The notes beneath the pieces are model-generated. The model did not search any database. It saw only the letters and a list, made by a program, of their open reading frames with translations, and had not been told where the DNA came from. 64,000 nucleotides of DNA, from the NCBI GenBank assembly GCA_963921795.1, contig OY997642.1, positions 4,795,944 to 4,859,943 of the forward strand, in the 5' to 3' direction. Shown here piece by piece: positions 1,872 through 63,540 of this stretch. The translations under genes were made by a program, and so were the position numbers. Position 1 is the stretch's first letter. Each line of letters begins with the position of its first letter. Origin of the DNA: Nannobrachium achirus (taxonomy: Eukaryota; Chordata; Actinopteri; Myctophiformes; Myctophidae).

Positions 1872-4800
1872 TGCTTTTTGCAAAACACATGATTGATTGC
1901 GACCGTAGGTCACAGTTTACTATCAGAACCAACACAGCTTGTCCTTCCGGACGTGTACACTTTTGTAAGGTCTATGAGTTTGCCGCTCTGACATCACCGT
2001 GAGATCATGCTCTGACTTCACTGTGATGTCAGGGGAACCACACTAACAGAATCCCATGTCATCAATATTAAGCCCATATCTAATGGGACTTCATATGGGA
2101 ATGCCCATATATGGAGGCCACATGTGATTTTATTAATGTATGTATTAATGCTAATAATGTTGTGATTTCAGGTCAGCTGTCCAGCGTAGAAACAAAGCTA
2201 ACTGCTAGTGCCAAGCAAGTGGATCATCTGGAGAGACAGAATGAAGGTGGTATAGATATTATTTATTAATACTAAATTGTATCTTTTTAAGACTGTAAAT
2301 TGTTCACTCAAAGACCTGGACCCTGAATGCTAACAGGCCCCCAAGATACCCAAGTTTTAGACCTTCCCCTTCAAGATGTTGTAAATGTACAATTTGAAAT
2401 GCGTTTACTGTAACACGTTTCATAGTTTAACTACAGTATACTGTATATATAGCTGTGTAAACTTCACAGATCCTGCCATTGGTAAGACAGAGATATCCAG
2501 TGGATCTGCAGAACATTGAGCTTGTAGATCAGCTATTTTTGCTATTTTTATGACCTTCTCTGACTCCGAAGTTTGAATCTACCTTTGAGGGTGGATTCAG
2601 CTTTGGGAATGGAGTGGTTTCTTGCCATTTGCGGATTCCTAAAGAACTACGCTCCATTCTCCATAAAAGTTGGAAAGACAAAACAGGAAAAGAAACATTT
2701 GTTTAGGAAAAGAGCAGTTGAAATGGCACATCTATATTTATATACCGCTATCTCTCTCTCTCTCTCTCTCCAAATATTTCAGATCGGCCTGTTGTAGCGC
2801 CATCAGGAGGCAGCTCTTTTCATAACACATTATTGCTATTAGTTCTACAGATTTCGTCCAAATGTCACGCAAATCGGTACTCAGCATCTCTATAGTCATT
2901 TCATATTCCATCCAGATAGGCTAACATTGGTTTCCAACGTTTGCAGGATTTGATTGATTGATTGAAGACTTTATTAGAAGTTTGCATAGGAAAAAGTACA
3001 GTTTCATGACGGTACAGTTCACTGGTACAAGGTCTACTAAAAGGAGATGCTAGAAAAGACTAAGCTTATTTCCATAGGAAACCATTGAAGTATCTCATAT
3101 AACATTGAATGACAGACGGATAGAACACACTACTATGCAGTAGATATAGTCAGGAAAAAAAGGGGAAAACTTAAGGGGTTAGGTGGTCTTGCTCATGGAC
3201 ACTTCCTGGAGCTGGAATCGAACCTGGGACCTCCAGAGTCCAAGGCAGGCTCACTAACCATTCAGCTACGGCCACCCACCCCAAGATTTGCAACCTCCAA
3301 TTGGGACTGAGTATCCACTCAAATGAAGGAGCATGTGATTGTATTGATGTAATGTATTAATCCTAATGTTGTGGTGATTTCAGCTCAGCTGTCCAACGTA
3401 GAAACAAGGCTAACTGCTAGTGTGGAGCAACTAACAATATTGTACTTTTTACTCCACTACAATTATTTGAAAACTATTCAGATACTACAGTAGTTACTTT
3501 GTAGATTTAGATTATTACTACAAAGCCTGCATTAACTACTTCAGCCCTGTATACATTTCGGCCATTATAATATAGACGATCGATGTGTCACATTGTGGGT
3601 TTGTAGATCTGCTGATTTTATTTTTTTGCGACCATAGGTCGCAGTTAACTATGAAAACCGGCACAGCCTGTCAGTACGTCTGTCCTTCAGTAACGTTGTG
3701 ACATCACCTTTTGTGACATCACCTTTTGTGACATCACCTGTTGTGACAAAATGTTCAGAAGAACCCCAATCCAACCGATATGCCCATAAAAGGGGACAAG
3801 GACTGAGAGACAGTTACTGACACGCACAGACGCATGTCTGGGGTCTCACAGCACATGGTGGGTTTACAGACTCCAAATGGATAGCAACATTTTTTGAGCG
3901 GTGCAAACCGCTCCTTTTGTTTCAGCCTTGTGTTAACCATGACGTCAGCACGGACCAATCAAAAGCTGTTCTGATCATGATGTCATGTGTTAGGTGTTAA
4001 GCAAACAGAACAGATCAATCAAACCCCAGTTTGACCATAACTGCCGCACAGATTGCTCGCTACCAAATTTTGTAATTGATGTTATCCTAGGTAAAGTAGC
4101 CTACTATGTTCTATCCATCTGTCTTTCAATGTTATTTGAGATACATAAAGTGGTTCCTGTGCAAATAAGCCGTAAAGCTTACTAGGAAATCCTTTTAATT
4201 GATCTTGTACCAGTGATTTGTGCTGTCATGAAACTGTAATTTTTTCTATTGCAAACTGCTAATAAACTCTTCAATCTTCAATCAATCAATAGCAAGAGAC
4301 ATGACAAAAGACTGAAAGCTAAATGTTTTTACCACTGAAGCAGAACTCTAATTTTCTCTGTTATGTTTTTAAGAAATGTCTGCCAAGCTCAGTGCCAGTG
4401 AGACCCAGGCGGAAATCCTCAAAGACCAGGCCCAACTCCTTGAAAACAGACTGAAAGACGTTGAAGGTAAATCATTTCAGAATAGATACTGTATGCATTT
4501 ATCAGACACTTAGCGTAAAGGTAAACACATCAAATGCAGAGAGACAGTGCAGTGCCTCAGTAAAGGATCATAGGTAAACCAGGAGCGTTGTCCAGGGTGT
4601 TTTAGGGAAGGGAGAAGAGTCTGGGACGCGTGGAGCGTTGTCCAGGGTGTTTTAGGGAGGGGAGAAGAGTCTGGGACGCGTGGAGCGTCTTCCAGGGTGT
4701 TTTAGGGAAGGGAGAAGAGTCTGGGACGCGTGGAGCGTCGTCCTGGGTGTTTTAGGGAAGGGAGAAGAGTCTGGGACGCGTGGAGCGTCTTCCAGGGTGT

Positions 4801-7392
4801 TTTAGGGAAGGGAGAAGAGTCTGGGACGCGTGGAGCGTCGTCCAGGGTGTTTTAGGGAGGGGAGAAGAGTCTGGGACGTGTGGAGCGTCGTCCAGGGTGT
4901 TTTAAGGAAGGGAGAAGAGTCTGGGACGCGTGGAGCGTCGTCCAGGGTGTTTTAGGGAAGGGAGAAGAGTCTGGGACGCGTGGAGCGTCTTCCAGGGTGT
5001 TTTAGGGAAGGGAGAAGAGTCTGGGACGCGTGGAGCGTCGTCCAGGGTGTTTTAGGGAAGGGAGAAGAGTCTGGGACGCGTGGAGCGTCGTCCAGGGTGT
5101 TTTAGGGAAGGGAGAAGAGTCTGGGACGCGTGGAGCGTCGTCCTGGGTGTTTTAGGGAGGGGAGAAGAGTCTGGGACGCGTGGAGCGTCGTCCAGGGTGT
5201 TTTAGCAAAGGGAGAAGAGTCTGGGACGCGTGGAGCGTTGTCCAGGGTGTTTTAGGGAAGGGAGAAGAGTCTGGGACGCGTGGAGCGTCGTCCAGGGTGT
5301 TTTAGGGAGGGGAGAAGAGTCTGGGACGCGTGGAGCGTCTTCCAGGGTGTTTTAGGGAGGGGAGAAGAGTCTGGGACGTGTGGAGCGTTGTCCAGGGTGT
5401 TTTAGGGAAGGGAGAAGAGTCTGGGACGCGTGGAGCGTTGTCCAGGGTGTTTTAGGGAGGGGAGAAGAGTCTGGGACGTGTGGAGCGTTGTCCAGGGTGT
5501 TTTAGGGAAGGGAGAAGAGTCTTGTTGTCCAGGGTGTTTTAGGGAAGGTAGAAGAGTCTTGTTGTCCAGGGTGTTTTAGGGAAGGTAGAAGAGTCTTGTT
5601 GTCCAGGGTGTTTTAGGGAGGGGAGAAAAGTCTGGGTTTGTTTGTCCAGTTGTTTGAGCGTTGAATGTTTAATGGATCACAATGGAAACAAGCCTTTGGC
5701 CTTTTTGTGTCTCATCCATTTGGTGTGTTTAGTCAGGGAATGTTTTTACAATCTGGGAATAAATTCCTTACCATTACATTTCTTCACCACTGTGTTTGTA
5801 AATTAAAAACTGTTCAGGGTGTTCATAAAAGCCTGATTAGACGATAAAATGACCAAAAGTTTTTTTTGAAAGTGAAATATCCCTGAAAGTGCAGATTGTC
5901 GGTTCCAAACAAACCTCCTTAACAAACACACTGATGCACCCGGATCTAGGCTGTACGCAGGCTTAAGCACACAATGTCCACAAAGCGACTTGATGTTTTG
6001 GTTGCAGGTTTAATTCTCAAAATAAAGTAATACAATCATTTCTCCATGGCATAGTTCTAAGGCTCTTCACTGTGGCTCTGGCACTGGTCAAAAAAACATT
6101 TGTCCACCAGGTGCATGCCTCCCCTCATTACCCAGGCCTACTTAAGCCTTTGCTGTGCCTGCCAATCAGTTAGGCCTGGGAGAGGTGTGCCTCTAGTGAC
6201 CAAATCATCTAATTAATCAATCAATTAACTAACAAACTATGAACTAACACAACTAATAATGCCAAATAATACTGAATAATTATGAATATAATAATGCAAA
6301 TAATAACAATAATCGAACAAAGAAAAGCAGTGCAGTGGCTTTTACAATCCCTTTAATCGGACGTACCGTGTTTTTTAATACTTTTAATTGGCTCAATATG
6401 TTCTAACCAACACACAGATTAGAGCTTAGAATTTCATCCCGGGCCCGACGGGATCCGACAGGTCGGTGCGGGCAGGGCCGGGCTGGGCCCCGGCTGGTCC
6501 GAGCTCAACTGGTCACGTATGACAGGCTTTGGGTTATAGGGTGGGGCTTTTTTAATCTGGTAGGCAAGCGCAGCGCAGTATCATGATGTCTCTGGCTGCA
6601 CCGCTGCGCTGTTGTACGTATGAATCAATGTTGAACGTATGAATGTATTACTATGATAACTATAATACACTATAATAGATTATAATAGTGGTTATAACAC
6701 AATATAATCTATTATCATTTATTACAACTATATCCTGGTGGTCTAAATGAAAAGTCAGTGAGTGATCATTATGAAGTGTTTGGCCCTGTTTGGCCTAGCT
6801 CAAACCTACTCTAGATTGAATACTTTTTCGTACCACGTTTAGTACCACTTTCACACCACTCTACCCAGGTCCTTGTAGTGGAAAACCTGTCACAAGTGGG
6901 CGGTGTGGTGTGGAGTGGTGTGGTGTGGTGTGGTGTTGTGTTGGGCCAGTGGAAAAACATACCTGACCAGTGACCATCACCACCATGCAGACCTGTACCA
7001 TTTACCTGTACTCATTTCCTCTGTTGTATTTTTCAGAAATGGCTGCCAACCTCACTGCCAGCGAGTCCCAGGTCCAACTCCTTGAAAACAGACTGAAAGA
7101 CATTGAAGGTAATTAGAACACAATGATAGTCAGTGAATCAGACAGGAGAGGACAGTGATGGAAACATGACTTAATTTAGTTTTAATTAATTTTAATAATT
7201 TGAAATGAGTGCCAATAAATTGAGGATAGATACTGTGTTGATATTGTAGTGTAGGCCTACTGTATGCATTCATCAGACACTTATAGTAAGCAAGATAAAC
7301 ACACATCAAATGCAGAGAGATAGTGCAGTGCCTCAGTAAAGGATCACAGCTAAACCTAGGATAAAATCAAACCCAAGTTTGAAGTGAGCGGT

Positions 7393-7474
<82 letters not shown>

Positions 7475-9773
7475 CGTGCGTGGGGGGGGGGGGGGGGGGG
7501 GGGGGGCGTGCACCCGTGTGTGTGAGAGTGTGAGCCATACTTGCTCACTCAGGCCAACACTATATTGCAGTTGATGCTCAGGGCAGACTAGACTCAACAG
7601 CACCTCTCTGGTCACACAGGGTACTCAGGCTACATACACCAGAGGCTACATACAGACAGACAGACAGACACACACACAGACAGACAGACAGACACACACG
7701 GATACACACACGGCCACGCTATGGAGACGGTGTGACCACCGCTCAAAAAGGAAGGATACTGCAGAAGGGGTGTGTATCAAAAATTGTGGGGGTATTGCAC
7801 ATGCACAGTGTAACTGGAGCTGCCATGGTGGAGTGTTCCAGTAGAGGCGCTAGATAAAAAAGATCATGATCCGTTCTCAGTAGAGCGAGGTGTGTGTTTG
7901 TTTTGTTCTCTCCTGGTTCTCTCTCCTCTCACCTAAACAGCTGCAGGTTTGTAATTCTCATCCACAACACAGACTAATTGTTGTTTTTAAACAATCACAC
8001 TGCATATAAAACAATAAACTATAACTTTGGGCTAATTCAGGAATATGCAACACATAGTTGTGCCTATTAGAGCACCAAATAGGCCTATGCCTACTTGTTT
8101 TGTGGCATAAGAACATAATTATGAACAAATAAAGACCAAGTCCCCAGCAGGCAATTAAAGTGGTTTACTGGTTAAGTGCCAATCCAGGCCGTGGTGTGCT
8201 GATCCCGAAGAAAAGTTCGGGATTTTCGTTTTATATTATATAACATTAGCGAGCAGTCAAAGGGGCTCGCATGGTGAATACTCACTGTAGGCCTACAGTG
8301 ATCCATTGGGCGATGATGTAATCCGGAACCGTGTAATCTCCATAGGCTTCTATTCATTGCGCTGCAAAGAAACAACTTTATCTCGGAATCTACTTCCAAA
8401 AACGCTTTGATCGCCGAGACACACTGGGCCGCGACGGTCGGCCGCTGTTACAATTTCTCTTCTGCGTGTAAACGTAAACAATCTGGTCAACATCTGGGGA
8501 TTAGTGGATTTCCACAACATGGAGTGCAGTGAATGGGAAAATGGTGGCACACTACGTTATCTGTACTTTGAAGCTATTGGGTTTAACAAACTGTTTATAA
8601 CCTCACCTCATTTACAAATTACAATGTAGGCATTTATCAGAGGATCTTTATCCAGAGTGACTTTTTAATTTAAAAAAGCCCTCCAGTCCGGTAACAGACT
8701 GATGGCTGGACCCTCTTTTTCAGCAGTGCCAATATTATAACAATAGTACACACTAAAACAACAATATGCAAAAACAGAGCACATACAAAACTAGAATACA
8801 TGATATTACTTACAGTAATCACATGCATAGAGACAGCTAGTGTGGTGCCTCAGTAAAGGATCACAGGTAAACAACATTTGTCTAAAGTAAACATATCGAA
8901 AATATAGACAATAATCTATTCTGTACATTGAACATGTGGAGCGTTGTCAAGGGTGTTTTAGGGAAGGGAGAAGAGTCCGGGATGTGTGGAGCGTCGTCCA
9001 GGGTGTTTTAAGGAAGGGAGAAGAGTCTGGGACGGGTGGAGCGTCGTCCAGGGTGTTTTATAGAAGGGAGAAGAGTCTGGGACGCGTGGAGCGTCGTCCA
9101 GGGTGTTTTATAGAAGGGAGAAGAGTCTGGGACGCGTGGAGCGTCGTCCAGGGTGTTTTATAGAAGGGAGAAGAGTCTTGTTGTCCAGGGTGTTTCAGGG
9201 AAGGGAGAAGAGTCTAGGCTTTTGTTGCACTGTATTGTCCAGTTGTTTGAGCGTTGAATGTTTAATGGATCACAATGGAAACAAGCCTTTGGCCTTTTTG
9301 TGTCCCATTAATTTGGTGTGTTCAGTCAGGGGATGTTATTACAATCTGTGAATATATTCCTTACCAATACATTTCTTCACCACTGTGTTTGTAAAGGTGT
9401 CTAGTACAGGGGTTCCCAAACCTTTTGGCTCAGGGCACCCCTATAAATATTTCTTTCCTCCGAGGCACCCCTACATTATATTCATAATTTTCACTCCCAG
9501 CTTTGTGTTTAATTGAGTAAATCAGAATTGCGTTGTACAGTCAAATAAGTCACCTCCATATAAGGGGAAACAATAGCAGATAATTGCCATGTTGGTTAGA
9601 ACTGAAAATAACTTAATGTACTTAAAATGATACAAAAAAATGAAATATTATCAAATTATCTTGTGGCAAACCCTGCACTGCCCTCACGGCACCCCAGGGT
9701 GCCCTGTCACCCACTTTGAAAACCCTATATAGGCCTATCTAGTAACACATTAAAAAACGTTTGAAATTCAATT

Positions 9774-9846
<73 letters not shown>

Positions 9847-10739
9847 TGCGTGCGTGCGCGTGCGTGCGCGCGTGTGTGTGCGTGTGTTAAAACATTTGAT
9901 TGGTTTAAGAGTATAACATAAGCTTTTATAACAAACATTGTGTTAATGCTCCTGTGTTGACAGACAAACCAAAGGTGGCCTTCTCTGCTGGTCTGGGTGT
10001 AGGGTGGTTTGGACCATATACTACTGTAACCACTCTGGTCTACTCTAGAGTTCACACTAACATCGGCAACGCATACAATCCATCTACAGGTAAGAGGGGA
10101 TTATGACAGGTTAATTCAATTATCAATTATCTCTCATTAACTAATTACACAACCACTATCTGACACATTGAAATGTGGACTACTGTCCAGATGTGTGTCC
10201 AGTGAAACTCACTGTCACAGATCAATATAAGAAAGCAAAATAAGTTCCAACACACTGAGAATACATCAGAACATATGTTGTGGTTGAAACCATCATCTTC
10301 TTGTCCAAAATTATGGTAAGATGATGTATTCACACACCTGTACTAATAGTGTGTGTGCGTGCGTGCGTGCGTGCGTGCGCGTGTGTGTGTGTTTGCGTGT
10401 GCGTGTGCATGTACATGTACATGTCCTCTCATAGGCATTTTTTCAGCACCATTCAAAGGAGTCTATAACTTCAGGTTTACAGCAGCTTGTGGCGGTTCAG
10501 CACCACACTCAGTGTGCATCAAGCTGTTTAAAAATGGACAGAGTCTCATGTGGAACTGTGGATACAATAGTCATCCTAACAAGTTTGAATATGTATCTAA
10601 TGGCATGGTGGTGGAGCTGGAGAGAGGAGACACAGTTGACATGCGTTTACCTCGTACTACTACTAAGAACACATACAGGCTCCATGACGATAACGACAAC
10701 CAGAACACATTCTCTGGGTTTCTGCTCTACACTCTGTAA
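1159..10739 (+). CDS. C1q-like gene A (spliced; signal-peptide exon outside the window)
   Basis: Gene for a secreted coiled-coil plus C1q-domain protein. Supported exons are 1159-1272, 2172-2246, 4374-4466, 7037-7108, 9964-10089 and 10435-10739, ending in TAA. All exon borders are AG/GT and phase 1, and the joined exons plus the one base carried from the missing first exon give 262 codons including the stop, with no internal stop. The first four exons encode a heptad-rich stalk; the last two encode one C1q domain of about 140 residues ending FSGFLLYTL. In the family the C1q domain is a ten-strand jelly roll that trimerises, and fish use many such proteins in innate defence. No collagen Gly-X-Y exon is present. 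The signal-peptide exon was not found and is presumed to lie upstream. Which stalk exons are used together in mRNA cannot be told from DNA. Confidence 0.8.
1425..1720. repeat. LINE 3'-UTR fragment and a short interspersed block
   Basis: Bases about 1430-1470 carry the 'ATCAGACACTTACAGTAAGCA' type sequence that follows each coiled-coil exon and resembles the 3'-UTR of fish LINEs. Bases about 1565-1715 match 62,635-62,785 downstream of gene C almost base for base, so this block is repeated within the locus. The open frame on the - strand here is not a gene. Confidence 0.5.
1806..1871. repeat. Microsatellite (CACG)n / (AC)n
   Basis: Simple CA then CACG/GCAC tetranucleotide repeat, about 65 bp. 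Confidence 0.95.
1899..2030 (+). mobile_element. 5' end fragment of a Helentron-like (HINE) element
   Basis: Starts with GCGACCGTAGGTC, the terminal inverted repeat of the complete copies at 19,920 and 60,599, and follows them for a few tens of bases before diverging. Truncated copy. Confidence 0.55.
2172..2246 (+). CDS. Gene A coiled-coil exon, 25 codons (type AQLSSVE)
   Basis: Phase 1-1 exon with TTTCAG acceptor and GGTGGT donor. Reads [20 protein letters not shown] then ERQNEG. Sister exons are 26267-26320 (gene B, shortened) and 53840-53914 (gene C, same length). The first codon is GGT here instead of GCT. The upstream 40 bp, with repeated 'ATTAATG' words, are conserved at all sister exons, so exon and intron were duplicated together. 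Confidence 0.78.
2790..2950. repeat. Interspersed repeat core (GCGCCA...AATCGGTAC)
   Basis: Contains 'TGTAGCGCCATCAGGAGGC' and 'CACGCAAATCGGTAC', shared with 20,409-20,690, 23,020-23,215, 52,160-52,660 and 63,050-63,535. In the 19.9-kb copy this core lies inside a Helentron-like element, so I take these as fragments of that family. Confidence 0.5.
2951..3290 (-). mobile_element. tRNA-derived SINE
   Basis: On the - strand the 5' end is tRNA-like: an A-box region (GTAGCTGAATGGTTAG) is followed about 40 bp later by a B box GGTTCGATTCC (complement at 3214-3224). The element ends in a (TCAA)n-type tail next to the GATTGATT repeat near 2951. 3'-end fragments of the same family occur at 4195-4290 (+) and 54,828-54,950 (-). 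No RNA gene function is implied. Confidence 0.75.
3384..3433 (+). pseudogene. Truncated copy of the AQLSSVE coiled-coil exon
   Basis: After a normal TTTCAG acceptor the sequence reads [14 protein letters not shown], matching the exon at 2172, then breaks off into hAT-MITE sequence (TTGTACTTTTTACTCC). The donor half is lost, so it is a dead exon copy. Confidence 0.75.
3434..3627 (+). mobile_element. Fragment of the CAGTGGTGTAAAG hAT MITE family
   Basis: Matches the interior of the complete 58,568-59,074 element, including 'CACTACAATTATTTGAAAA' and 'CTTCAGCCCTGTATACATTT'. It ends with a worn half of the hairpin core (GTAGATCTGCT). The same block lies at 54,500-54,600 in gene C, so it was present before duplication. 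Confidence 0.6.
3628..3750 (+). repeat. Helentron-like 5' fragment plus three copies of a TGACATCACC unit
   Basis: GCGACCATAGGTCGC begins a truncated Helentron-like copy, followed by three copies of a 15-bp unit containing TGACATCAC (about 3700-3746). The equivalent array in gene C (55,908-56,155) has expanded to about 17 copies. Confidence 0.7.
3751..4373. other. Intron of gene A holding empty target sites for gene C insertions
   Basis: Bases 3751-4035 match 56,155-56,399, 58,532-58,567 and 59,075-59,110 of gene C. They show the uninterrupted target for two gene-C insertions: TTA at 3990-3992 (foldback element) and about 4016-4024 (hAT MITE). A SINE 3' fragment lies at about 4195-4290. No gene is seen. 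Confidence 0.7.
4374..4466 (+). CDS. Gene A coiled-coil exon, 31 codons (shortened EMSAKL type)
   Basis: Phase 1-1 exon with an AAG acceptor and GTAAAT donor. Reads [20 protein letters not shown] then [12 protein letters not shown]. Against the 38-codon version it lacks seven codons in the middle (the SNSDNQV-type joint), exactly 21 bases, so the frame is kept. The acceptor is weaker than the CAG used by sister exons. Confidence 0.72.
4490..4580 (-). mobile_element. LINE 3'-UTR fragment next to the minisatellite
   Basis: Contains 'ATTTATCAGACACTTAGCG' and 'CTCAGTAAAGGATCA', also seen after exons at 1272, 7108, 26,683 and 60,410 and beside every minisatellite array. It resembles the 3'-UTR of fish LINEs, here read on the - strand. 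Confidence 0.55.
4581..5640. repeat. Minisatellite: about 19 x 50-bp units then 3 x 37-bp units
   Basis: Near-perfect 50-bp tandem repeat (core GTCCAGGGTGTTTTAGGGA) from 4581 to about 5520, followed by a 37-bp short form that lacks 13 bp. Related arrays: 8937-9222, 27,290-27,885, 61,498-62,010. On the - strand the unit reads [18 protein letters not shown], close to the C-terminus of a LINE polyprotein still recognisable at 45,347-45,538. Frames running through the array are not genes. Confidence 0.95.
5641..7036. other. Gene A intron: conserved post-array segment, then unrecognised DNA
   Basis: Bases 5641-5800 (TTGAATGTTTAATGGATCAC onward) match the sequence after the arrays at 9240, 27,905 and 62,045. 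From 5885 to about 6250 the sequence is specific to this copy; it has a polyadenylation-like AATAAAG on the + strand and could be a solo LTR-like insertion, but I see no proof. Bases 6436-6500 are a GC-rich fragment. A TGGTG repeat lies at 6899-6942. No exon is found. Confidence 0.5.
7037..7108 (+). CDS. Gene A coiled-coil exon, 24 codons (short EMAANL type)
   Basis: Phase 1-1 exon with TTTCAG acceptor and GTAATT donor. Reads [20 protein letters not shown] then KDIEG. It is a shortened relative of the EMSAKL exon, joining the first nine or so codons directly to the QVQLLENRL half. It has the same length as the gene C exon at 60339-60410, but there the deletion falls elsewhere. Confidence 0.74.
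7250..7520. repeat. LINE 3' fragment, (GT)n tract and a 24-base G run
   Basis: LINE 3'-UTR-like block at about 7263-7350, then (GT)n at 7393-7475, CGTG repeats, and an unbroken run of G from about 7483 to 7506. Histidine-rich - strand frames here come from the repeat and are not genes. Confidence 0.9.
7521..8936. other. Gene A intron without recognised gene; LINE 3'-end fragment at about 8664-8760
   Basis: A (CAGA)n tract lies near 7652-7692. Bases about 8664-8760 (GGTAACAGACTGATGGCTGG, CTCTTTTTCAGCAGTGCC) match the extreme 3' end of the full-length LINE at 38,655-38,760, in the same orientation (LINE on - strand). The second fish-LINE 3'-UTR motif flanks it on both sides (8625 and 8820). 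Nothing else is recognised. Confidence 0.6.
8937..9222. repeat. Minisatellite, five 50-bp units and two 37-bp units
   Basis: Same unit family as 4581-5640. As there, long units come first and short units last. The overlapping + strand open frames have a 50-bp periodicity and are artefacts. Confidence 0.93.
9407..9736 (+). mobile_element. hAT MITE, family CAGGGGTTCCCAAAC (copy A)
   Basis: Begins CAGGGGTTCCCAAAC and ends in an inverted relative (CACTTTGAAAACCCT). An 8-bp target (GTCTAGTA at 9399-9406) is echoed after it (ATCTAGTA at 9737-9744). Identical placement in B (28,078-28,418) and C (62,205-62,533) shows it inserted before the gene duplicated. Confidence 0.85.
9775..9888. repeat. (TG)n microsatellite before C1q exon 1 of gene A
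   Basis: About 113 bp of TG then GCGTGC variants, ending about 75 bp before the C1q exon. The same position in gene B holds 28,461-28,540. Confidence 0.95.
9964..10089 (+). CDS. Gene A C1q-domain exon 1 (42 codons)
   Basis: First half of the C1q domain. Acceptor GACAG, donor GTAAG, phase 1-1. Reads [20 protein letters not shown], then [23 protein letters not shown], the hydrophobic VYSRV strand and N[10 protein letters not shown] are hallmarks of the C1q/TNF-fold N-terminal half. Compared with gene B it differs by only a few residues ([11 protein letters not shown] versus GAFGPYTTETT), so purifying selection or recent duplication is likely. Confidence 0.93.
10348..10420. repeat. (TG)n/(CGTG)n tract close to the C1q exon 2 acceptor
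   Basis: Degenerate TG repeat ending about 15-30 bp before the acceptor at 10433-10434. The only pyrimidine tract is the short TCCTCTCATAG. Gene B has the same arrangement with a longer tract. Confidence 0.9.
10435..10739 (+). CDS. Gene A C1q-domain exon 2 (terminal exon)
   Basis: Completes the C1q domain: [20 protein letters not shown], then a strand with [36 protein letters not shown] and the family-typical end [11 protein letters not shown] followed by TAA. The two internal cysteines flanking the KNGQ loop are kept. In gene B the region before the last strand has three more residues (GSGTTADGTQ), a loop-length difference. The 3' flank GGATAAACT is conserved between A and B. Confidence 0.94.
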
Positions 10740-12310: not shown

Positions 12311-12450
12311 AAGTAATCAATGTGAGTATTTCTACCAGCACTACTGGTAATCAATGTGAGTATTTCTACCAGCACTACTGGTAATCAATGTGAGTATTTC
12401 TACCAGCACTACTGGTAATCAATGTGAGTATTTCTACCACACTACTGGTA
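12311..12450. repeat. Small 33-35-bp satellite array (about 4 units)
   Basis: Units contain AATCAATGTGAGTATTTCTA and CACTACTGGT. The same array in the B flank (36,240-38,575) has grown to about 40 units. The unit looks like the terminus of the MITE just upstream. Confidence 0.93.
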
Positions 12451-12577
12451 CCATATACTTTAAAGAGCTTCCATAATGCTCATATTCATCTGTCAATAAA
12501 TAAAAACATATTCAAAAGCACTGTGTCTATTGTATGTTTGACTGATTATGTTTAACACTGTATTGATACATCTAGAA

Positions 12578-24088: not shown

Positions 24089-29519
<5,431 letters not shown>

Positions 29520-36240: not shown

Positions 36241-38575
36241 ATCAATGTGAGTATTTCTACCAGCACTACTGGTAATCAATGTGAGTATTTCTACCACAGA
36301 GCTGCCAACCCTCACGCAATGAGCGTGAGACTCACGCAAATGACCCTCTTCTCACGCTCTCACGCCACACATCGTATTTCTCACGCCGTCATATCACCAG
36401 CCGTCACAAAGTGGAAAACTGCGTCAACTAAGTGTCACTGAGACATCCACTTCGGCCGCGATTTGAGCAATTAAGGGCTTAAAATACTGTATCTGATTCT
36501 GAAGTAATGTTTAGATGCGTCGCTGTGTGTGCGTGAGCGTCTGGTGTGAGGAACGCTGCGGGCACGTTCATGCGCACATCAAGACATCATTCTCTACAGT
36601 AAGATCGACAGGCGACAGGAGGATCTACACACAACATTAATTCAACACGTCCAAAATGCCCATTGCTTACTAGCAGGCAGTTTAAATGAGGAGGGACTTT
36701 TGGATGGATGCGTGTGCAAAAAGAACAGATCTTCAATCAAAAGACGTGTTACTTGCAGCTTAATGTAAACATTTATCCATAATTTTCTCATCCTAGTAAC
36801 GCCAGATAAAAGTATCAAACTCCCTGTAAAATGCAACAGAATACAGGAAATAACATCTACTCTTTTAATTTTTTTCTGGGGGAGGACCCCCAGACCCCCC
36901 ACCAAAATTATCCACAGTAGGCTAAAGGCTATTAACTACGTTTCTGCCTCAAAATTACATGTTCATTATTGAGGGCTAGATTTGGAGAATTAAATAACAC
37001 CCACCCAGTGTGATACTGTACCTGGTTGGTGTAATAGTGACTCCAAGGATCGATACAATTATAATAATAATCAAAATGATTGTAATATTTGTTGAAGATA
37101 TAGGGCCTATATGTCATTTTTTATATTTCTTTTGCGCCCCCCCCCCCCCCCCCCCCTCGCAAAAAAAGAAAAATCTCACTCTTAGGTTTCCCTGAAAGTT
37201 GGCAGCCCTGTTCTACCAGCACTACTGGTAATCAATGTGAGTATTTCTACCACACTACTGGTAATCAATGTGAGTATTTCTACCAGCACTACTGGTAATC
37301 AATGTGAGTATTTCTACCACACTACTGGTAATCAATGTGAGTATTTCTACCACACTACTGGTAATCAATGTGAGTATTTCTACCACACTACTGGTAATCA
37401 ATGTGAGTATTTCTACCACACTACTGGTAATCAATGTGAGTATTTCTACCAGCACTACTGGTAATCAATGTGAGTATCTCTACCACACTACTGGTAATCA
37501 ATAATCAATGTGAGTATTTCTACCAGCACTACTGGTAATCAATGTGAGTATTTCTACCACACTACTGGTAATCAATGTGAGTATTTCTACCACACTACTG
37601 GTAATCAATGTGAGTATTTCTACCACACTACTGGTAATCAATGTGAGTACAGTATTTCTACCACACTACTGGTAATCAATGTGAGTATTTCTACCACACT
37701 ACTGGTAATCAATGTGAGTATTTCTACCAGCACTACTGGTAATCAATGTGAGTATTTCTACCACACTACTGGTAATCAATGTGAGTATTTCTACCACACT
37801 ACTGGTAATCAATGTGAGTATTTCTACCACACTACTGGTAATCAATGTGAGTATTTCTACCACACAACTGGTAATCAATGTGAGTATTTCTACCACACAA
37901 CTGGTAATCAATGTGAGTATTTCTACCACACTACTGGTAATCAATGTGAGTATTTCTACCACACTACTGGTAATCAATGTGAGTATTTCTACCACACTAC
38001 TGGTAATCAATGTGAGTATTTCTACCACACTACTGGTAATCAATGTGAGTATTTCTACCACACAACTGGTAATCAATGTGAGTATTTCTACCACACAACT
38101 GGTAATCAATGTGAGTATTTCTACCACACTACTGGTAATCAATGTGAGTATTTCTACCACACTACTGGTAATCAATGTGAGTACAGTATTTCTACCACAC
38201 TACTGGTAATCAATGTGAGTATTTCTACCACACTACTGGTAATCAATGTGAGTATTTCTACCACACTACTGGTAATCAATGTGAGTATTTCTACCACACT
38301 ACTGGTAATCAATGTGAGTATTTCTACCAGCACTACTGGTAATCAATGTGAGTATTTCTACCACACTACTGGTAATCAATGTGAGTATTTCTACCACACT
38401 ACTGGTAATCAATGTGAGTATTTCTACCACACTACTGGTAATCAATGTGAGTACAGTATTTCTACCACACTACTGGTAATCAATGTGAGTATTTCTACCA
38501 CACTACTGGTAATCAATGTGAGTATTTCTACCAGCACTACTGGTAATCAATGTGAGTATTTCTACCACACTACTG
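36240..38575. repeat. 33-bp satellite, about 40 units, interrupted by a hAT element
   Basis: Units (AATCAATGTGAGTATTTCTA plus CCACACTACTGGT) run 36,240-36,296 and 37,211-38,575. Variants CACACAACTGG and a GTACAGTATTT insertion recur in blocks, a sign of unequal exchange. Long frames (for example 37,510-38,604) are repeat artefacts. The array has about 4 units in the gene A flank. Confidence 0.97.
36297..37210. mobile_element. hAT element inserted in the satellite, 0.91 kb
   Basis: Ends CAGAGCTGCCAAC / GTTGGCAGCCCTG with exact 8-bp duplication TTCTACCA (36,289-36,296; 37,211-37,218), which is satellite sequence. Left part has repeated CTCACGC words. No transposase domain recognised. Confidence 0.9.
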
Positions 38576-38821
38576 GTACCATATACTTTAAAGAGCTTCC
38601 ATAATGCTCATATTCATCTGTCAATAAATAAAAACATATTTCATTTCATTTCATTTCAACCTTTATTTAATTCTCGGTAACAGACTGAGGGCTGGTACCC
38701 TCTTTTTCAGCAGTGCCGAGATTACAATACATTTACAGATTACAATGCATTTACAGATTACAATACATTTCACAAAATTATCAAAATAATTCCATCCCAT
38801 ACATTTCTGTAATTTTCAACC

Positions 38822-41800
38822 TCAGGAAAAACAATTACAATTTAGATTGACCAAGGTTGATATGTCTGATTTAAAACGGCTTAGTGGAACAAGGGATTTA
38901 TATTTAAGTGAAACCTGTAAGGTATTCCATGAATGTGAAGCACAAAATTTGAAAGCTGTCTTTCCAAACTCAGTCGAGGGATGTGAAGGCTCAAGCATCA
39001 AATAATCCTGCGATCGTGTTTGGTGGCTAATAATTCTCCACTGCAAAAGAGAATTTAAATAAGAAGGTAAACTCCCAAGTAGGGCTTTATAAATAAATAA
39101 AAACCAATGCTGATCCCTCCTGGTCGCAAGTGAGGGCCAGCCTACCTTATTGTACAGTATGCAGTGGTGAGTATTATAGCTATCACCTGTTATAAATCTG
39201 AGTGAAGAGTGATAAACTGATGCATTTCGATATACTATGTCTCCATAATCCAGAGCAGAGAGGAACAATGCCTCAATAAGCCTCTTTCTGGTCGGCCATG
39301 GAAAACATGATCTATTTCGATAGAAAAAGCCAAGCTTCATTCTTAGATTCTTTGTTAAGAACTCAATGTGTGTGTTAAAAGTAAGTTTTTCGTCCAACCA
39401 AATCCCTAGATATTTGTAGTGGGGGACTCGTTCAATAGAGGTGCCATTAGTGGTGAAAAGGTGAGGATCATTTTCATTAAAAGCTCTCCCCTTTGTGAAC
39501 AACATAAATTTGGTCTTATCAGCATTTAAAACTAATTTTAGATCCAGCAGTGATTTCTGGAAAACATCAAAGGCAAGTTGTAGCATATAAACAGCTTTCT
39601 GAACGGAGTCTGAAAAACAATATAAAATCGTGTCATCTGCATATAAATGTATATTACAGGTCTGTAATGTGTTTACAACATTATTAATATAAATAATAAA
39701 TAGTATGGGACCCAAAATTGAGCCTTGGGGAACGCCTTTAGAGATGTGAAGAAACTCAGATTTTACAGGTCCAACTTTGACACATTGATGTCTGTCAGAC
39801 AGATAATTCTCAAACCATTTACACGCAATAGGATTAAAACCAATATAAGATAATCTTTGTAAAAGTAATATGTGATCCACCGTATCGAAAGCCTTAGATA
39901 AATCAATAAAAAGTGCAGCACAAAATAGCTTGTTATCCAGGGCAGAAATAATATTATTTAAAACTAACGAGGTAGCAGATATTGTACTGTGCTTGGCCCG
40001 AAAACCAGACTGATGAGGACTTAAAACAGAGTAACTATTTAAAAATACTTTTAGCTGGTTATTCACAAGTGATTCAAGAATTTTTGCAAGACATGATAAC
40101 TTGGATATTGGACGGTAATTATTTGGGTCTTTTTTATCGTGTCCTTTATGCAAAGGTACAACGTGAGCAGTTTTCCAAACTTGGGGTATGATACCAGTTG
40201 AGATAGATAGATTAAAAATATAACAGATGGATTCTGTGATTAAAGGAGTAGAAACCTTCAAAAGGAAAGGATCCAAGTTATCCTCCCCGACTGATTTTTT
40301 GGGGTCTATGGTGGATAAAGCCTGGAATACCTCATTTGCATTAAAAGGCTTGAAAGAAAAAAGGGTTTCTGAGGTTCTAACAGAGGGTTCTTCACTAGTA
40401 GTGACATCAGCATTGTCTATGTGCAAATTATTTGTAGCAGCAGCATTGTTTATGTGCAAGTTGTCAAAGACGTGGCCTGCAGCAGCAAAATGGTTGTTAA
40501 AAGCTGAACATATTTCCTTTTCATCAGTTAAAACATTATTCCCGAGATTAAGGTGAGTGGGGACAGTACTGGAATTTTGCTTTCTAGTGGAGTTTATAAC
40601 CTTCCAGAACTTATTAGGGTTAGAGTAAGTACAGCTGTCTCCAAGTAAATGTACATAATAATTTGATTTTGCTTTTCTTACAAGCTCAGTGCATTTGTTG
40701 CGTAGCTGTCTAAAGGTTAGCCAGTGAGAGGGGTCATCTGAGCGTCTGGCTAGGGCCCAGGCTTTGTTTCTTGAATGAAATAATGATGATAATTCATCCG
40801 TAAACCATTTGTTAGATCTGTCTTTTATTCTAAATTTTTTAAATGGGGCATGTTTATCCACTAAAGAATTGAAACAATTAATAAAGAAATTAAGTGCCGA
40901 TTCAGCATTTGTTATGTGGAAAATATTGGACAGGTAACTACAGTGAAGATCATCTAAAAATGCTTGTGCATTAAAATTTCGAAGATTTCGCCTTACTAAA
41001 ATTTTGGGATCAGATTTCTGTAGCCTATCATTTCTGACACAGGCAACAGGACAATGGTCACTAACGCCAAGCGGAAACACACCACTGGAGGTGTATTTAT
41101 CTGGTCTATTTGTAAAAATAAGGTCAATAAGAGTGGAGTTTCTGGGGTTTTTTAAGTTTGGTCTGGTTGGCTCAGAGATCAGTTGTGTTAATTTTAAGTC
41201 CATACTGATGTCCTTTAAGTTTTGTGATACATCAGATAGATAATTTAAATTTAGATCTCCTGTAATTAAAATTTCTGAGTTTAAATAGGGGGAGAGAAGT
41301 TCAGTCAATAGGTGTAGTGAGTCTGGGGGGGCAGCAGGGGGCATATATAGGCCTATCCCCACAACTATTACAGAAAACCCAGTTTGACCCAGATCCAGTT
41401 TTAATGCAATAAATTCAAAATGTTTGGGGATTGAAACAGATTTAAGCAGAGAAACAGCAAACCTGGTTTTTACATAGATGGCTACACCACCCGCCCTACC
41501 AGCTCTGTCAGTTCTATATATACTATACCCATTTAAAGCAATGTCAGAATCAGGGATATATTGTTTAAGCCATGTTTCAGTGAGGACAAAAATGTCAGGA
41601 TCAGCCTGAGATGCTAATATTTTTATATGATCAAGTTTCCCGGTCTTGCATAAACTTCTAATATTATAATGTAGTAAGCCCAAACCTTTCCTTAATTTAA
41701 AAGTTGCAGGGTTGCAAGTGGAGACAGGATTTATAATGTGATTTTGTTGAACAGCACGGATTGGATTTGTAATCTGCACTTTAATGAGATTCCTATAAAC

Positions 41801-41986
41801 TATGCTTGCTGTGCTAGATGGTAATTTTCTCAGAGGTCTATGATTAAATACCACTGGAATACAGGATGGACATTTGATGAATCCATCTGGCCATAAGAGG
41901 GAGCTAGCGTGATTATGGGTGAGACGGGAGAGACGTGTTGGTTGCTGTGACCCGGAAGTATTTTGCAGAGGACCGGAAATAATCAA
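38822..41986 (-). CDS. LINE ORF2: endonuclease plus reverse transcriptase (1054 aa)
   Basis: Nicks target DNA and copies the LINE RNA. An APE-type endonuclease occupies about residues 104-312: HYNIRSL (Asn), LTETWL (Glu), ITGDLNLN (catalytic Asp/Asn), LIDLIFTN and SDHCPV. Reverse transcriptase about 590-900: NNYRPISKLS, SGFRAKHST, FIDLSKAFDTVDH, GVPQGSILGPILF and the catalytic LYADDTIL near residue 782, then LNADKTKFML and YKYLGIWLDE. The C-terminus has LPSYLNSLL and a W-NTLQ motif usual for this clade. All catalytic residues are present and there is no stop. The family is CR1/L2-like by domain order and by its partner ORF1. Confidence 0.96.
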   Translation of the reverse strand: MIISGPLQNTSGSQQPTRLSRLTHNHASSLLWPDGFIKCPSCIPVVFNHRPLRKLPSSTASIVYRNLIKVQITNPIRAVQQNHIINPVSTCNPATFKLRKGLGLLHYNIRSLCKTGKLDHIKILASQADPDIFVLTETWLKQYIPDSDIALNGYSIYRTDRAGRAGGVAIYVKTRFAVSLLKSVSIPKHFEFIALKLDLGQTGFSVIVVGIGLYMPPAAPPDSLHLLTELLSPYLNSEILITGDLNLNYLSDVSQNLKDISMDLKLTQLISEPTRPNLKNPRNSTLIDLIFTNRPDKYTSSGVFPLGVSDHCPVACVRNDRLQKSDPKILVRRNLRNFNAQAFLDDLHCSYLSNIFHITNAESALNFFINCFNSLVDKHAPFKKFRIKDRSNKWFTDELSSLFHSRNKAWALARRSDDPSHWLTFRQLRNKCTELVRKAKSNYYVHLLGDSCTYSNPNKFWKVINSTRKQNSSTVPTHLNLGNNVLTDEKEICSAFNNHFAAAGHVFDNLHINNAAATNNLHIDNADVTTSEEPSVRTSETLFSFKPFNANEVFQALSTIDPKKSVGEDNLDPFLLKVSTPLITESICYIFNLSISTGIIPQVWKTAHVVPLHKGHDKKDPNNYRPISKLSCLAKILESLVNNQLKVFLNSYSVLSPHQSGFRAKHSTISATSLVLNNIISALDNKLFCAALFIDLSKAFDTVDHILLLQRLSYIGFNPIACKWFENYLSDRHQCVKVGPVKSEFLHISKGVPQGSILGPILFIIYINNVVNTLQTCNIHLYADDTILYCFSDSVQKAVYMLQLAFDVFQKSLLDLKLVLNADKTKFMLFTKGRAFNENDPHLFTTNGTSIERVPHYKYLGIWLDEKLTFNTHIEFLTKNLRMKLGFFYRNRSCFPWPTRKRLIEALFLSALDYGDIVYRNASVYHSSLRFITGDSYNTHHCILYNKVGWPSLATRRDQHWFLFIYKALLGSLPSYLNSLLQWRIISHQTRSQDYLMLEPSHPSTEFGKTAFKFCASHSWNTLQVSLKYKSLVPLSRFKSDISTLVNLNCNCFS

Positions 41987-42025
41987 ATCTGCAGTGTAAA
42001 CAGACTTGTCTAGTGGAGTAAGCAG

Positions 42026-43360
42026 TCAATGTAGTGGTCGCGACTGTACAGTAACAGAGCGATGCATATTGAGTGAAAGCATTTGGGATCCAGTTATACT
42101 TGGGTGCAGGCCATCTGACATATAATAAGAGGAGCGGTCCCAAAATAAAAAGAAATTTGAGACGTAGCTTATGTTATGGGACTGACTGTGGCATGTAGAT
42201 TGTAACCAGTAGTGTAGTGATAATAGCCGACTAAAACGTACATTTCCATGGTATGGCATGGTAGGCAGGGGACCAGAGATGTAAATGGTTTTCCCACAGC
42301 TACTGAGCAAGTCAAAAATACTTTTAAAGCTCGACCTTGCTATTTCGGAGTACTTATCATTTGCTCCTGAATGTAAAACAATTTTAGTGATGGACGGTGG
42401 GAGAGAACTTATAATTTCGGGCATCTTTTCAAGAAGTTTGGCTGTGGTTATTCCAGGAAAACAATGGACTACTGCATTGGCGAATTTGACCCTTTTTATA
42501 ATTGAATCGCCGATAACTGCCGTGGATGGAGCGATCAATGGAGTGGACATGTATGGGGGGGTTCGCTTCAGGAGTGGAGGATGAGAGATGGGACTCGCCG
42601 ATCGGCGTTGGACAGCCAGTTTTAAAAGTTTGTGGCGGTCGTTTCCCTGTCTGGAGGAGGCAGCTAGCCTGGATTTCCCAGCGATCGGAGCCGGGCCACT
42701 ACGCGCTGCGCCAGGATCCTCTCGGGGGGTGCGATGTATAATAGCTTGGGGGGGTTCGTTTACCCGGGGGGGTGGGGGTGACGAAGCACCACCAAGCAGC
42801 AATGGAGGGATATTATGAGGATTCAGTGGGGGGTAATCCGAATTGTTTAAAGCAGTGAATGTATTGCTTGTAATGAGCGGGGGGGCTTTGTATATCTTAG
42901 ATGTTTTGTGTTTTTTGGCGTATTTTTTGCCGTGTTTGTGCCGAACAACTTCTGTCCAGGGAGTGGAACTAGACCTCGGCTCCAGCCTAGGTCTAGCACC
43001 CTCCTTTTCCCACCGGCTAGAGACATCCAGTAGCGGGGGATTCGGAGCCAACCTGTCCATCACAGCGGGGACAGTATCGTCCAGGTCGCGCCTCGCGACA
43101 GGAGGAGCCAGGGCCGTCCTCTTCACCACGGCAGGGACAGTATCGTCCAGATTACCTGCCGTAGCAAGGCCAACGTGAGGATCCATGGAGGTCTCAGCGT
43201 CGGGTGATTCGGGTTGGAGCATTGAAGCGGCGGCGAGATCATCGAGGAACGTCTCGCCGTCCTTAATCTGGTACAGCATGGAGATCCTTCCTTCCAGTTC
43301 GAGCACTTTCTGGGTGAGATGATGACAGCTATCGCAGCTTGATGTGAAGGTAAGTGACAT
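42026..43360 (-). CDS. LINE ORF1 with SGNH esterase domain (about 444 aa)
   Basis: I choose the ATG at 43,358-43,360 (MSLTFTSSCDSCHHL); the frame stays open to an ATG at 43,564, giving 512 residues. N-terminus: CDSCHH possible metal site and a short leucine-rich helix (QKVLELEGRISMLYQI). Middle: low-complexity, Pro/Arg-rich with a basic KKYAKKHK stretch, likely RNA binding. C-terminus: an SGNH hydrolase with TAVIGDSIIKRV (Ser block), LHSGANDKY (Gly/Asn block) and DGLHPSITG (Asp-His pair). An esterase in ORF1 is known for the CR1/L2 group. The stop is 39 bases before the ORF2 start. Confidence 0.9.
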   Translation of the reverse strand: MSLTFTSSCDSCHHLTQKVLELEGRISMLYQIKDGETFLDDLAAASMLQPESPDAETSMDPHVGLATAGNLDDTVPAVVKRTALAPPVARRDLDDTVPAVMDRLAPNPPLLDVSSRWEKEGARPRLEPRSSSTPWTEVVRHKHGKKYAKKHKTSKIYKAPPLITSNTFTALNNSDYPPLNPHNIPPLLLGGASSPPPPRVNEPPQAIIHRTPREDPGAARSGPAPIAGKSRLAASSRQGNDRHKLLKLAVQRRSASPISHPPLLKRTPPYMSTPLIAPSTAVIGDSIIKRVKFANAVVHCFPGITTAKLLEKMPEIISSLPPSITKIVLHSGANDKYSEIARSSFKSIFDLLSSCGKTIYISGPLPTMPYHGNVRFSRLLSLHYWLQSTCHSQSHNISYVSNFFLFWDRSSYYMSDGLHPSITGSQMLSLNMHRSVTVQSRPLH

Positions 43361-43939
43361 GATGGTGGTAGCTGAGGGAAGAAAAAGAAGACTTTGGCCA
43401 GTAAAAGTGTATTGTGATGGGGAGAGTTTGGCAGGTTTGTAGCAGCAATGTTGTTGTAGTAGGTCTACAGACTGGTAGTAGTAGTGACTGTGACAGGACA
43501 ATACATACAAGCGAGGGCACCTCAACGGTGCCCACGGAGTAGAGTAGATAGACCTTAGCGTCACAACCAGAGTAGAATTTTGGCGCCAACACTAGAACAC
43601 GGTACACACTGAAAGTCCAGCTAAAAACGGGACTTACCAGCAAAGGCCCAAAGACTGGGCCTATTGCGGTGGAAAGGCGTTCAGTATGCCCGGTAGAGAT
43701 GATGTGTCATCCTGGGTTGATGTTCTTCAATAGCCCTGTGGACTAGGGCTGCTGTGTTGTTTCTCATATACCGTATGAGAAAAATAAAACTGGTCGGATT
43801 AAAAAATATATTTAAAATAATAAAACACTAAGAACCAGAGCAGTCTTTTTAAAAGCCAGTCATTTAAAAGCCAGTTGTTTAGGCGGTTTGGCTAGCGCTG
43901 CTCTGCTGCTGCTCTGCTGCTGCTCTGCTGCTGCTCTCC

Positions 43940-45100: not shown

Positions 45101-45109
45101 GTGTGATGC

Positions 45110-45540
45110 TCTTAATCAAGAGTGATTCACAATAACAAGGTAATGAATACATCAGTATATCAACATCAATACATCAAATGCATAGACATATTAGGCTATA
45201 TCTAAAAAAAAGTACATAGGTAGACCAAGCACTTATTCAGTAAAAACAACTTCATAAAAGATAAACATGCTATCTAAATTACATGTATGGTCATTGAGAG
45301 TTACAGTAGTGGTATGGGTTTAGGTGGAGTCTGAAAAGGTGAGTCTTCAGTCCACGGTGGAAGCTATAGGGAGCGAATCTGTTGTTCTAACTGCAACTGG
45401 GAGTTTATTCCACAGTTTGGGGGCCAGGAGGGCGAAAAGTCTTGGACGAGTGGATCGTTGTCCTGGGGTTTTTAACGAGGGTTCTGTCAGCTTCCCTGCA
45501 GTGTCAGCTGATCTGCGAGAACGGGATAATCTCAACACAT
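45110..45540 (-). mobile_element. LINE 3'-terminal fragment, the relative of the minisatellite unit
   Basis: The - strand frame at 45,347-45,538 reads [37 protein letters not shown], the usual C-terminus of fish LINE polyproteins; the 3'-UTR-like part with AAATGCATAGACATATT lies to the left (45,110-45,330). This matches, in order and strand, the composition found beside the C1q minisatellites. Confidence 0.8.
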
Positions 45541-60429: not shown

Positions 60430-60598
60430 ATACTGTATGCATTTATCATTATGTAAGGTAAACACATCGAATGCAGAGAGACAGTGCAGGACCTCAGTAA
60501 AGGATCACAGGTAAACCAGGAAGCTACTGTAGCTTCTGTCTAAGCAATATAATATCAAACACATAATAATCTGTACACCATAGGGTGCCTGGTTAATT
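60430..60598 (-). mobile_element. LINE 3'-UTR fragment
   Basis: GAATGCAGAGAGACAGTGCA and CTCAGTAAAGGATCACAGGT, as after the other coiled-coil exons; interrupted by the Helentron-like element and continued at 61,150-61,500. Confidence 0.5.
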
Positions 60599-61497: not shown

Positions 61498-62010
61498 GCC
61501 CAGGAAGAGTCTAGGATCTGCGGAGCGTTGTCCAGGGTGTTTTAGGGAAGGGAGAAGAGTCTGGGACGCGTGGAGCGTCGTCCAGGGTGTTTTAGGGAAG
61601 GGAGAAGAGTCTGGGACGCGTGGAGCGTCGTCCAGGGTGTTTTAGGGAAGGGAGAAGAGTCTGGGACGCGTGGAGCGTCGTCCAGGGTGTTTTAGGGAAG
61701 GGAGAAGAGTCTGGGACGCGTGGAGCGTCGTCCAGGGCGTTTTAGGGAAGGGAGAAGAGTCTGGGACGCGTGGAGTGTTGTCCAGGGTGTTTTAGGGAAG
61801 GGAGAAGAGTCTAGGATCTGTGGAGCGTTGTCCAGGGTGTTTTAGCGAAGGGAAAAGAGTCTGGGACATTTTAGGGAAGGGAGAAGAGTCCAAGACATGT
61901 GGAGCAGTGTCCAGCATGTTTTAGGGAAGGGAGAAGAGTCTTGTTGTCCAGGGTGTTTTAGGGAAGGGAGAAGAGTCTTGTTGTCCAGGGTGTTTTAGGG
62001 AAGGGAGAAG
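61498..62010. repeat. Minisatellite, 50-bp units then 37-bp units (gene C)
   Basis: Seven or so 50-bp units, some irregular ones near 61,860-61,920, then two or three short units. Same family as the arrays in A and B. Confidence 0.94.
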
Positions 62011-62204
62011 ATTCTAGGCTTTTGTTGCACTGTATTGTCCAGTTGTTTGAGGGTTGAATGTTTAATGGATCACAATGGAAACAAGCTTTTGGCCTTTTTG
62101 TGTCCCATTCATTTGGTGTGTTTAGTCAGGGGATGTTATTACAATCTGTGAATAAATTCCTTACCAATACATTACTTCTCCACTGTGTTTGTAAAGGTCT
62201 AGTA
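62011..62204. other. Conserved post-array intron segment
   Basis: TTGAATGTTTAATGGATCAC onward matches 9,245-9,398 and 27,910-28,069. Confidence 0.85.
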
Positions 62205-62533
62205 CAGGGGTTCACAAACTCTTTTTGGCTCAGGGCACCCCTATAAATATTTCTTTCCTCCGAGGCACCCCTACATTATATTCATAATTTTCACTCCCAG
62301 CTTTGCATTTAATTGAGTAAATCAGAATTGCGTTGTACAATCAAATTAATTCACCTAAGGGGAAACATTAGATAATAGCCATTTTGGTTAGAACTGAAAT
62401 TAACTTTGTACTTAAAATTATACAAAATATTATTTATAAGTGTTCAAATTAATTTGAAATATTATCTCATGGTACCCCTGGACTGCCGTCATGGCACCCC
62501 AGGGTGCCCTGTCACCCACTTTGAAAAGCCCAT
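62205..62533 (+). mobile_element. hAT MITE, family CAGGGGTTCCCAAAC (copy C)
   Basis: Exact duplication GTCTAGTA (62,197-62,204; 62,534-62,541), orthologous to copies A and B. Confidence 0.88.
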
Positions 62534-62572
62534 GTCTAGTAACACATCGAATAAAGTTTGAAATTCAATTTC

Positions 62573-63540
62573 CCAGGGGGAATTGTTGAGAGCTGCTGAA
62601 AGTTTGGGTCCTTATATATAGCCTATAGAAGAAAAAAATACAAAAAGAAAATGTGCTTTAAGTAGCATGTGAGGGATCAAACTATGTTTTTTTTCATGAT
62701 TCTGAATCCATTGCATTTCATTTGTTTTGCAAGAAAAACACTCCTTGGGCTAAAAACGGGCCCAGAAAAAAATGGTTTGTTTTAGAGATGTCACGATTCG
62801 ATAAAGGGATCGGGGATCGGGTCCGATTTCGTTGTTTTCAAAAGATCAGAGATCGGGGGGATTTTTTTTTTTTTTTTTAAGAAGGGTACCCCTGGAGAAA
62901 AATAGTTGAGTGTCATGCCTTTCTAATTTTAGTCCAAGGGAGGATCAGCAAATTTTTTTTTCGAGTCCAAGGGGAGGGTCATACCAGTTTTTATTAATAA
63001 CATAGTCTGTTTTTATCTGCAGACACAGGTCTCCACTAGGTCAGGAAGGTTATTGTGGCCTCCTGGTGGCGTTATAGGCCATTGTGAAAATTGTGCGAGG
63101 TCTTCTTCAGCCTTTCATGGCATGATTTTGTTCCAAAAAACTGTTTCGCAGAAGTCGACCTGATGGTGGCGCTATAACAGGACAATGTCAAAAGGGTGGC
63201 ATTTGTTCCTTGACCTAGTGGGAATGTGTGTGCAAAGTTTCACGGAAAGCGCAAGCTGCATTCATGATTTGAGGCATTTTGTTTACAACGGACGAATCCT
63301 GGCATCTTTGGAAGGCAATGTTAACCAATCAGGATGGAATATGAAATATCAGACAGATCCGTCTTGATCACATGACAATAGAGATACTGTGTACAGATTT
63401 GTGTGATTTTTTGGATAAAATCTGAAGGAGTAATATCCAAAAATGTGTTTTACATAAGTCGGCCTCCTGGTGGCGCTATAAAAGGCAGTTGTGAAAAATG
63501 CAGGGCAAAGGTTTTTCCTTGGCCTCTAGTTTGCATACTG
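62573..63540. other. Repeat-derived sequence where C1q exon 1 would be expected
   Basis: After TTTGAAATTCAATT the text stops matching genes A and B. It holds the block shared with 1565-1715, a hAT-like fragment (TAGAGATGTCACGATTCG at 62,784) and repeat cores with TGGCGCTATAACAGG and CTCCTGGTGGCGCTATA at 63,055-63,535. No C1q coding sequence is seen in any frame. Confidence 0.65.

Follow-up and report, generated by a model that had tools for sequence, protein, structure and literature searches.

A 50-bp minisatellite of Nannobrachium achirus originated from the coding end of a LINE

C1q genes of Nannobrachium achirus carry in their introns a tandemly repeated 50-bp unit that resembles LINE coding sequence, which raises the question of how such a repeat was born and how it reached these genes. 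We analysed a window of 64,000 nucleotides (GenBank assembly GCA_963921795.1, contig OY997642.1, positions 4,795,944 to 4,859,943) and searched the genome with sequences related to the repeat. Within the window, Tandem Repeats Finder reported a period of 50 with 18.8 copies at 4582-5522 on the plus strand (LINE sense being the minus strand), and then a period of 37 with 4.0 copies at 5487-5633, also on the plus strand, forming the right end of this first array. The original prediction had named three arrays besides the one at 4581-5640, and all three were found by the same program near 8936, 27,294 and 61,504. The second lies in the intron of a paralogous C1q gene at 8936-9218 (Tandem Repeats Finder, 8936-9178), the third consists chiefly of 37-bp units at 27292-27889 (27,294-27,883), and the fourth mixes 50- and 37-bp units at 61504-62018 (61,504-62,015), each on the plus strand. 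With at most 3 mismatches allowed, the window contains 53 occurrences of the pattern CCAGGGTGTTTTAGGGAAGG, against a chance mean of 0.01. With units in head-to-tail tandem and a unit length within 10-100 bp, the array has the form of a minisatellite. Its reading frame is broken, since 50 is not divisible by 3 and the array contains stops, and an Rfam search gave 0 matches at gathering scores. The array is probably variable non-coding DNA, for which we propose no function.

The unit had been predicted to resemble the coding end of a LINE represented by a 3'-end fragment in the same window (coding end and 3' UTR, 45105-45525, minus strand). Counted residue by residue, 14 of 17 agree between the minus-strand peptide of the unit and that of 45,341-45,540 (minus strand), about the agreement claimed. 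The nucleotide alignment points the same way: 37 of 45 bases agree with the unit-like stretch at 45,429-45,472, with a local score of 48, compared to 25 for the best of 300 shuffles. This fragment belongs to a large family (41 rows from the 40 scored among 3856 candidates in the genome search), and the consensus of 29 copies runs through the end of the reading frame, the stop and the 3' UTR to a short-repeat tail. Features of the coding end and of the tail at the 3' end lead us to take the source LINE to be L2-type; a Pfam search with the 108-aa coding end gave no family at E 0.1. The 45-kb fragment was rejected as the direct source and is better described as a distant relative: the best unit match among the fragment and its 29 fetched relatives is 42/50 (L012), and the fragment itself reaches 37/45 (82%) compared to 51/55 (93%) for the LINE copy L072 described below.

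The window also holds a LINE with two long open frames at 38822-43591 (minus strand), one of them with endonuclease and reverse transcriptase domains (RVT_1, E 4.7e-38), and the 3' end of this LINE adjoins a 33-bp array. A second minisatellite, with a 33/34-bp unit, is found at 12313-12512 and 37211-38640. Because the same right flank follows at both sites (97% identity over 205 bp, array end included), this minisatellite likewise seems to travel together with an element beside it.

LINE copies that had not expanded were sought genome-wide with a query made of the LINE flank of array L042 plus one unit, and 40 of 3099 candidates were scored. We fetched six such copies (L070-L075), whose 3' side reaches the LINE coding end and takes in little of the 3' UTR. 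The results revealed that in three of the six a single unit lies between two stretches of LINE sequence, at 89-93% identity (L071, 47/53; L072, 51/55; L074, 49/53), whereas L070 and L075 break off within the unit and L073 just past it. These three copies show that the minisatellite was made from the LINE coding end, as had been proposed, and contradict the opposite outcome, namely that no genomic LINE holds the unit. The proposal had further expected unexpanded copies to continue from the single unit into the 3' UTR. The single unit was found in L071, L072 and L074, the 3' UTR lying barely within the fetched stretches, and in some unfetched copies the match begins in the 3' UTR and extends across the unit (G000:C9:34205912, for instance, at 72% over query 67-461). 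In L073 (G000:C5:33170914-33171360), the unit is directly adjoined by an inverted copy of itself.

We then compared the sequences beside the arrays with the LINE. A LINE 3'-UTR-like piece had been predicted to border each window array, and this held for three of the four (8.9, 27.3 and 61.5 kb) and was not confirmed for the first. To the left of the third array, a 3' UTR remnant on the minus strand (27058-27291) begins at the LINE 3' end and aligns in the expected order and strand, with a score of 116 compared to at most 66 in 100 shuffles. The same alignment gave 71 versus 79 (shuffled) for the flank of the 8.9-kb array and 69 versus 67 for that of the 61.5-kb array, and a LINE profile matched the left flanks of both (E 1.2e-5 and 6.1e-6, respectively). 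The left flank of the first array scored 48 against a shuffled maximum of 44 and had no match in the LINE flank comparisons. This flank (4470-4581, no strand assigned) is an intron piece common to the paralogues, homologous to 7258-7361, 26748-26871 and 60431-60521, and its paralogous counterparts lie upstream of the array. The other upstream intron pieces scored 57 versus 51, 49 versus 55 and 55 versus 65 (shuffled) against the LINE 3' UTR.

Across the genome, 46 array rows (L001-L008, L039-L068 and the four window arrays, L001 repeating the first of these) were merged by common flanks into 31 independent groups. Of 92 flanks, 15 matched the LINE profile, without exception on the expected strand and in 14 cases on the expected side; the flanks searched kept 25 array bases, so that short matches were helped (L008, L049, L051, L061), and the one wrong-side match, L048 right, belongs to a distinct LINE piece some 310 bases off. 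Control stretches 0.7-1.4 kb from the arrays matched the profile in 7 of 83 cases, five being neighbouring arrays and two LINE pieces. A stricter comparison, against the flanks of other groups and the LINE consensus with array bases cut to 3, gave matches for 17 of the 92 flanks, compared to 0 in every one of three shuffles; in three of the 17 (L039, L048, L058 left), the side or strand was wrong. The match of L058 right lies some 230 bases from the array and is doubtful; it was left out of the passing groups. Nine of the 31 groups passed strictly (the C1q locus, L042/L056, L005, L006, L045, L054, L055, L061 and L062), and three more passed weakly (L008, L049, L051), giving 12. A LINE flank was absent from 22 of the 31 groups by the strict comparison, or from 19 when the weak ones are counted, and evidence of carriage by a LINE is therefore limited to a minority of arrays. 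The flanks are in register with the LINE: left flanks end, and right flanks resume, at opposite sides of the unit.

To describe the spread of the repeat, we searched the genome for arrays and scored 40 of 547 candidates, a sample that is consequently biased towards arrays like the query. An exact search for a 35-base array junction gave 532 occurrences genome-wide, compared to 0 for a reversed-pattern control. The 50-bp repeat is not specific to C1q introns; a C1q-specific repeat is ruled out by these junctions and by the same units at many unrelated loci. Arrays in introns of immune genes thus need not be gene-specific. Among 29 merged array loci, a set that favours long arrays, 17 are at most 5 Mb from a chromosome end, compared to 7 of 35 LINE loci (Fisher P = 0.002); left out of this test were 11 of 51 array rows, each a second piece of an array already counted, and 3 of 41 LINE rows (one second piece, two on contigs of unavailable length). 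On contigs C1-C4, which are completely covered because the junction matches listed run on into C5, 10 of 14 exact-pattern loci are equally close to an end, with 12% expected (P = 5e-7). In human, the minisatellites CEB1 and CEB25 are also described as subtelomeric in the text cited (PMC3486850). On contig C23, arrays L041, L046, L052 and L067, about 3 Mb from either end, have common non-LINE flanks near both ends and possibly form a subtelomeric duplication family.

The original prediction placed the birth of the repeat in the ancestral C1q intron, by expansion of a truncated LINE inserted there. This part found no support, as the same units stand at many unrelated loci and the base states of the arrays are absent from the readable unexpanded LINEs. 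One diagnostic base was read in 578 units outside the C1q locus as A in 507, G in 61, T in 10 and C in 0, compared to C in the unexpanded copies L071-L075 and T in more distant copies such as the 45-kb LINE. The 532 exact copies of the 35-base junction are of the A type, and the C type has 0. The modal unit was found in 19 of the 31 groups. Since the arrays have in common base states missing from all five unexpanded LINEs that could be read, these results favour a single origin within one LINE lineage with later dispersal, and we infer that the array was born once. An unexpanded group of A-type LINEs may exist, the A/C base being readable in five copies only.

Each array could instead have arisen in its own LINE copy, from the same short repeats 50 bp apart, so that no dispersal would be needed. 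Such recurrent births would explain why register and period are dictated by the LINE and why different arrays meet rather different LINE right flanks. Compared like for like, moreover, single units from different loci are 0.924-0.933 alike and thus differ about as much as the same stretch in four unexpanded LINE copies (0.88-0.94). However, independent births fit poorly with a C state in none of the 578 array units and with 0 C-type compared to 532 A-type junctions, and the last unit beside the LINE flank also carries A where it was read (L005, L045, L049, L051, L061). We therefore regard independent births as unlikely.

A less probable alternative, which we hold to be quite improbable, is that recombination, through gene conversion or circles, moved ready-made arrays into LINE copies already present and into other sites. 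The 19 to 22 of 31 groups without detectable LINE flanks speak for it, as does the finding that in 16 locus pairs the unit consensuses are 0.966 alike and the flanks 0.822. However, the contrast narrows to 0.924 versus 0.822 when single units are compared, and the same comparison weakens the idea that the arrays are much younger than their LINE flanks. The search also favoured query-like arrays, and unit types with several variants that were common to loci numbered 15, against a null mean of 13.5 and a maximum of 22, an absence of excess that lends no support to interlocus exchange. That the resemblance between a GC-rich minisatellite and a LINE arose by chance is negligibly probable: the shortness of the unit is all that speaks for it, against a score nearly double the shuffled best (48 versus 25), array flanks in register with the LINE, and whole units in three LINE copies, which we consider to have refuted the idea already.

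The four window arrays trace to one event at the C1q locus. Pairwise comparison showed that all four sit in duplicated gene units, and their right flanks are 93.8-97.4% identical over 161-253 bases; one further right-flank pair, array sequence included, is 89% identical. The near-identical flanks and the duplicated units indicate one inherited insertion, in agreement with the common descent that had been claimed. C1q-domain exons (Pfam PF00386) follow on the plus strand downstream of the second array (10434-10739, E 1.5e-14) and of the third (29127-29519, E 4.9e-15); inspection by eye of open frames of at least 55 residues revealed no C1q exon after the first array (5640-7010) or the fourth (62,020-64,000). 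Spacing 37 was recorded, among the 46 array rows, only in the C1q-cluster arrays on C5 (L001, L002, L057 and the window), and sequence comparison shows the 37-bp form to be 13 bases shorter than the 50-bp unit. It thus looks like a local derivative, consistent with its predicted later origin. The first array (4581-5640) recurs at G000:C5:4880030-4881089, about 79.5 kb away on the same contig, at a rounded identity of 100%, which suggests either that a large tandem duplication took place recently or that the assembly contains a duplicate.

The LINE itself offers a candidate starting point for the birth. In L072, two GAAGG words exactly 50 bp apart bracket the unit, and the array junctions read TTTTAGGGAAGG joined directly to GAGAAGAG, as expected from a duplication between two GAAGG words. 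The present case fits models in which a minisatellite is born from a pair of short direct repeats, as reportedly put forward by Haber and Louis (1998) and by Taylor and Breden (2000). The exact pair is present in one of the four unexpanded copies with a whole unit (L071-L074); L071, L073 and L074 retain the second word only, so that the slippage step is proposed rather than read directly. Of the truncated copies, L070 has the first word only and L075 neither.

We propose that a LINE (L2-type as read) bore a 50-bp stretch near its coding end that ended in GAAGG, and that replication slippage or repair between short direct repeats would have duplicated this stretch once, in one LINE lineage. The tandem array would then have grown, and array-bearing LINE 3' ends would have dispersed genome-wide, probably by the LINE machinery, given that the LINE 3' end is kept. 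Flanking LINE sequence may subsequently have decayed or been deleted, long arrays persisting or growing preferentially near chromosome ends. One insertion would have entered an intron of the ancestral C1q gene before the gene was duplicated, and a loss of 13 bp there would have given the 37-bp form. We consider this course of events, taken as a whole, likely. Beyond it, we suggest more tentatively, and with less than even confidence, that a LINE lineage with a self-made minisatellite seeded length-variable arrays whose survival or growth was favoured at chromosome ends, the retrotransposon acting as a delivery vehicle. The likely ancestor (a LINE with one unit), the intermediate (a LINE-flanked array) and the products (an array without detectable LINE, and the 37-bp derivative) all occur in one genome, and the birth, spread and local evolution of a minisatellite are therefore datable and testable here.

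Among the literature titles listed, none describes this 50-bp repeat; subscription journals are thinly covered there, and the repeat may nevertheless have been published. LINE-derived tandem repeats are already known as a kind, of which the present case is unusually clear. In soybean, the Gmr9/GmOgre minisatellites likewise reside in a retrotransposon and occur apart from it as well, but the element there has long terminal repeats, the repeated stretch follows the coding region, and 90% are still associated with the element, according to the text cited (PMC3305785). The human genome is reported to hold 7,276 minisatellites derived from transposable elements, 23% of its minisatellites and satellites (PMC3389668); these too were born inside transposable elements, whereas here one unit type recurs at many loci. 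PROsat of Phodopus and Pvc 20 of the harbour seal, both from LINE-1 ORF2, have a LINE coding source in common with the present repeat, and differ in that this source is LINE-1 and in being classed among satellite DNAs (PMC9659126). The chicken HinfI (SCR1) repeat, described as the 3' UTR plus partial ORF2 of CR1, is alike in being a tandem repeat from the 3' part of a LINE that includes coding sequence; it is termed a satellite DNA, whereas the present repeat is a 50-bp minisatellite in dispersed short arrays (PMC9659126).
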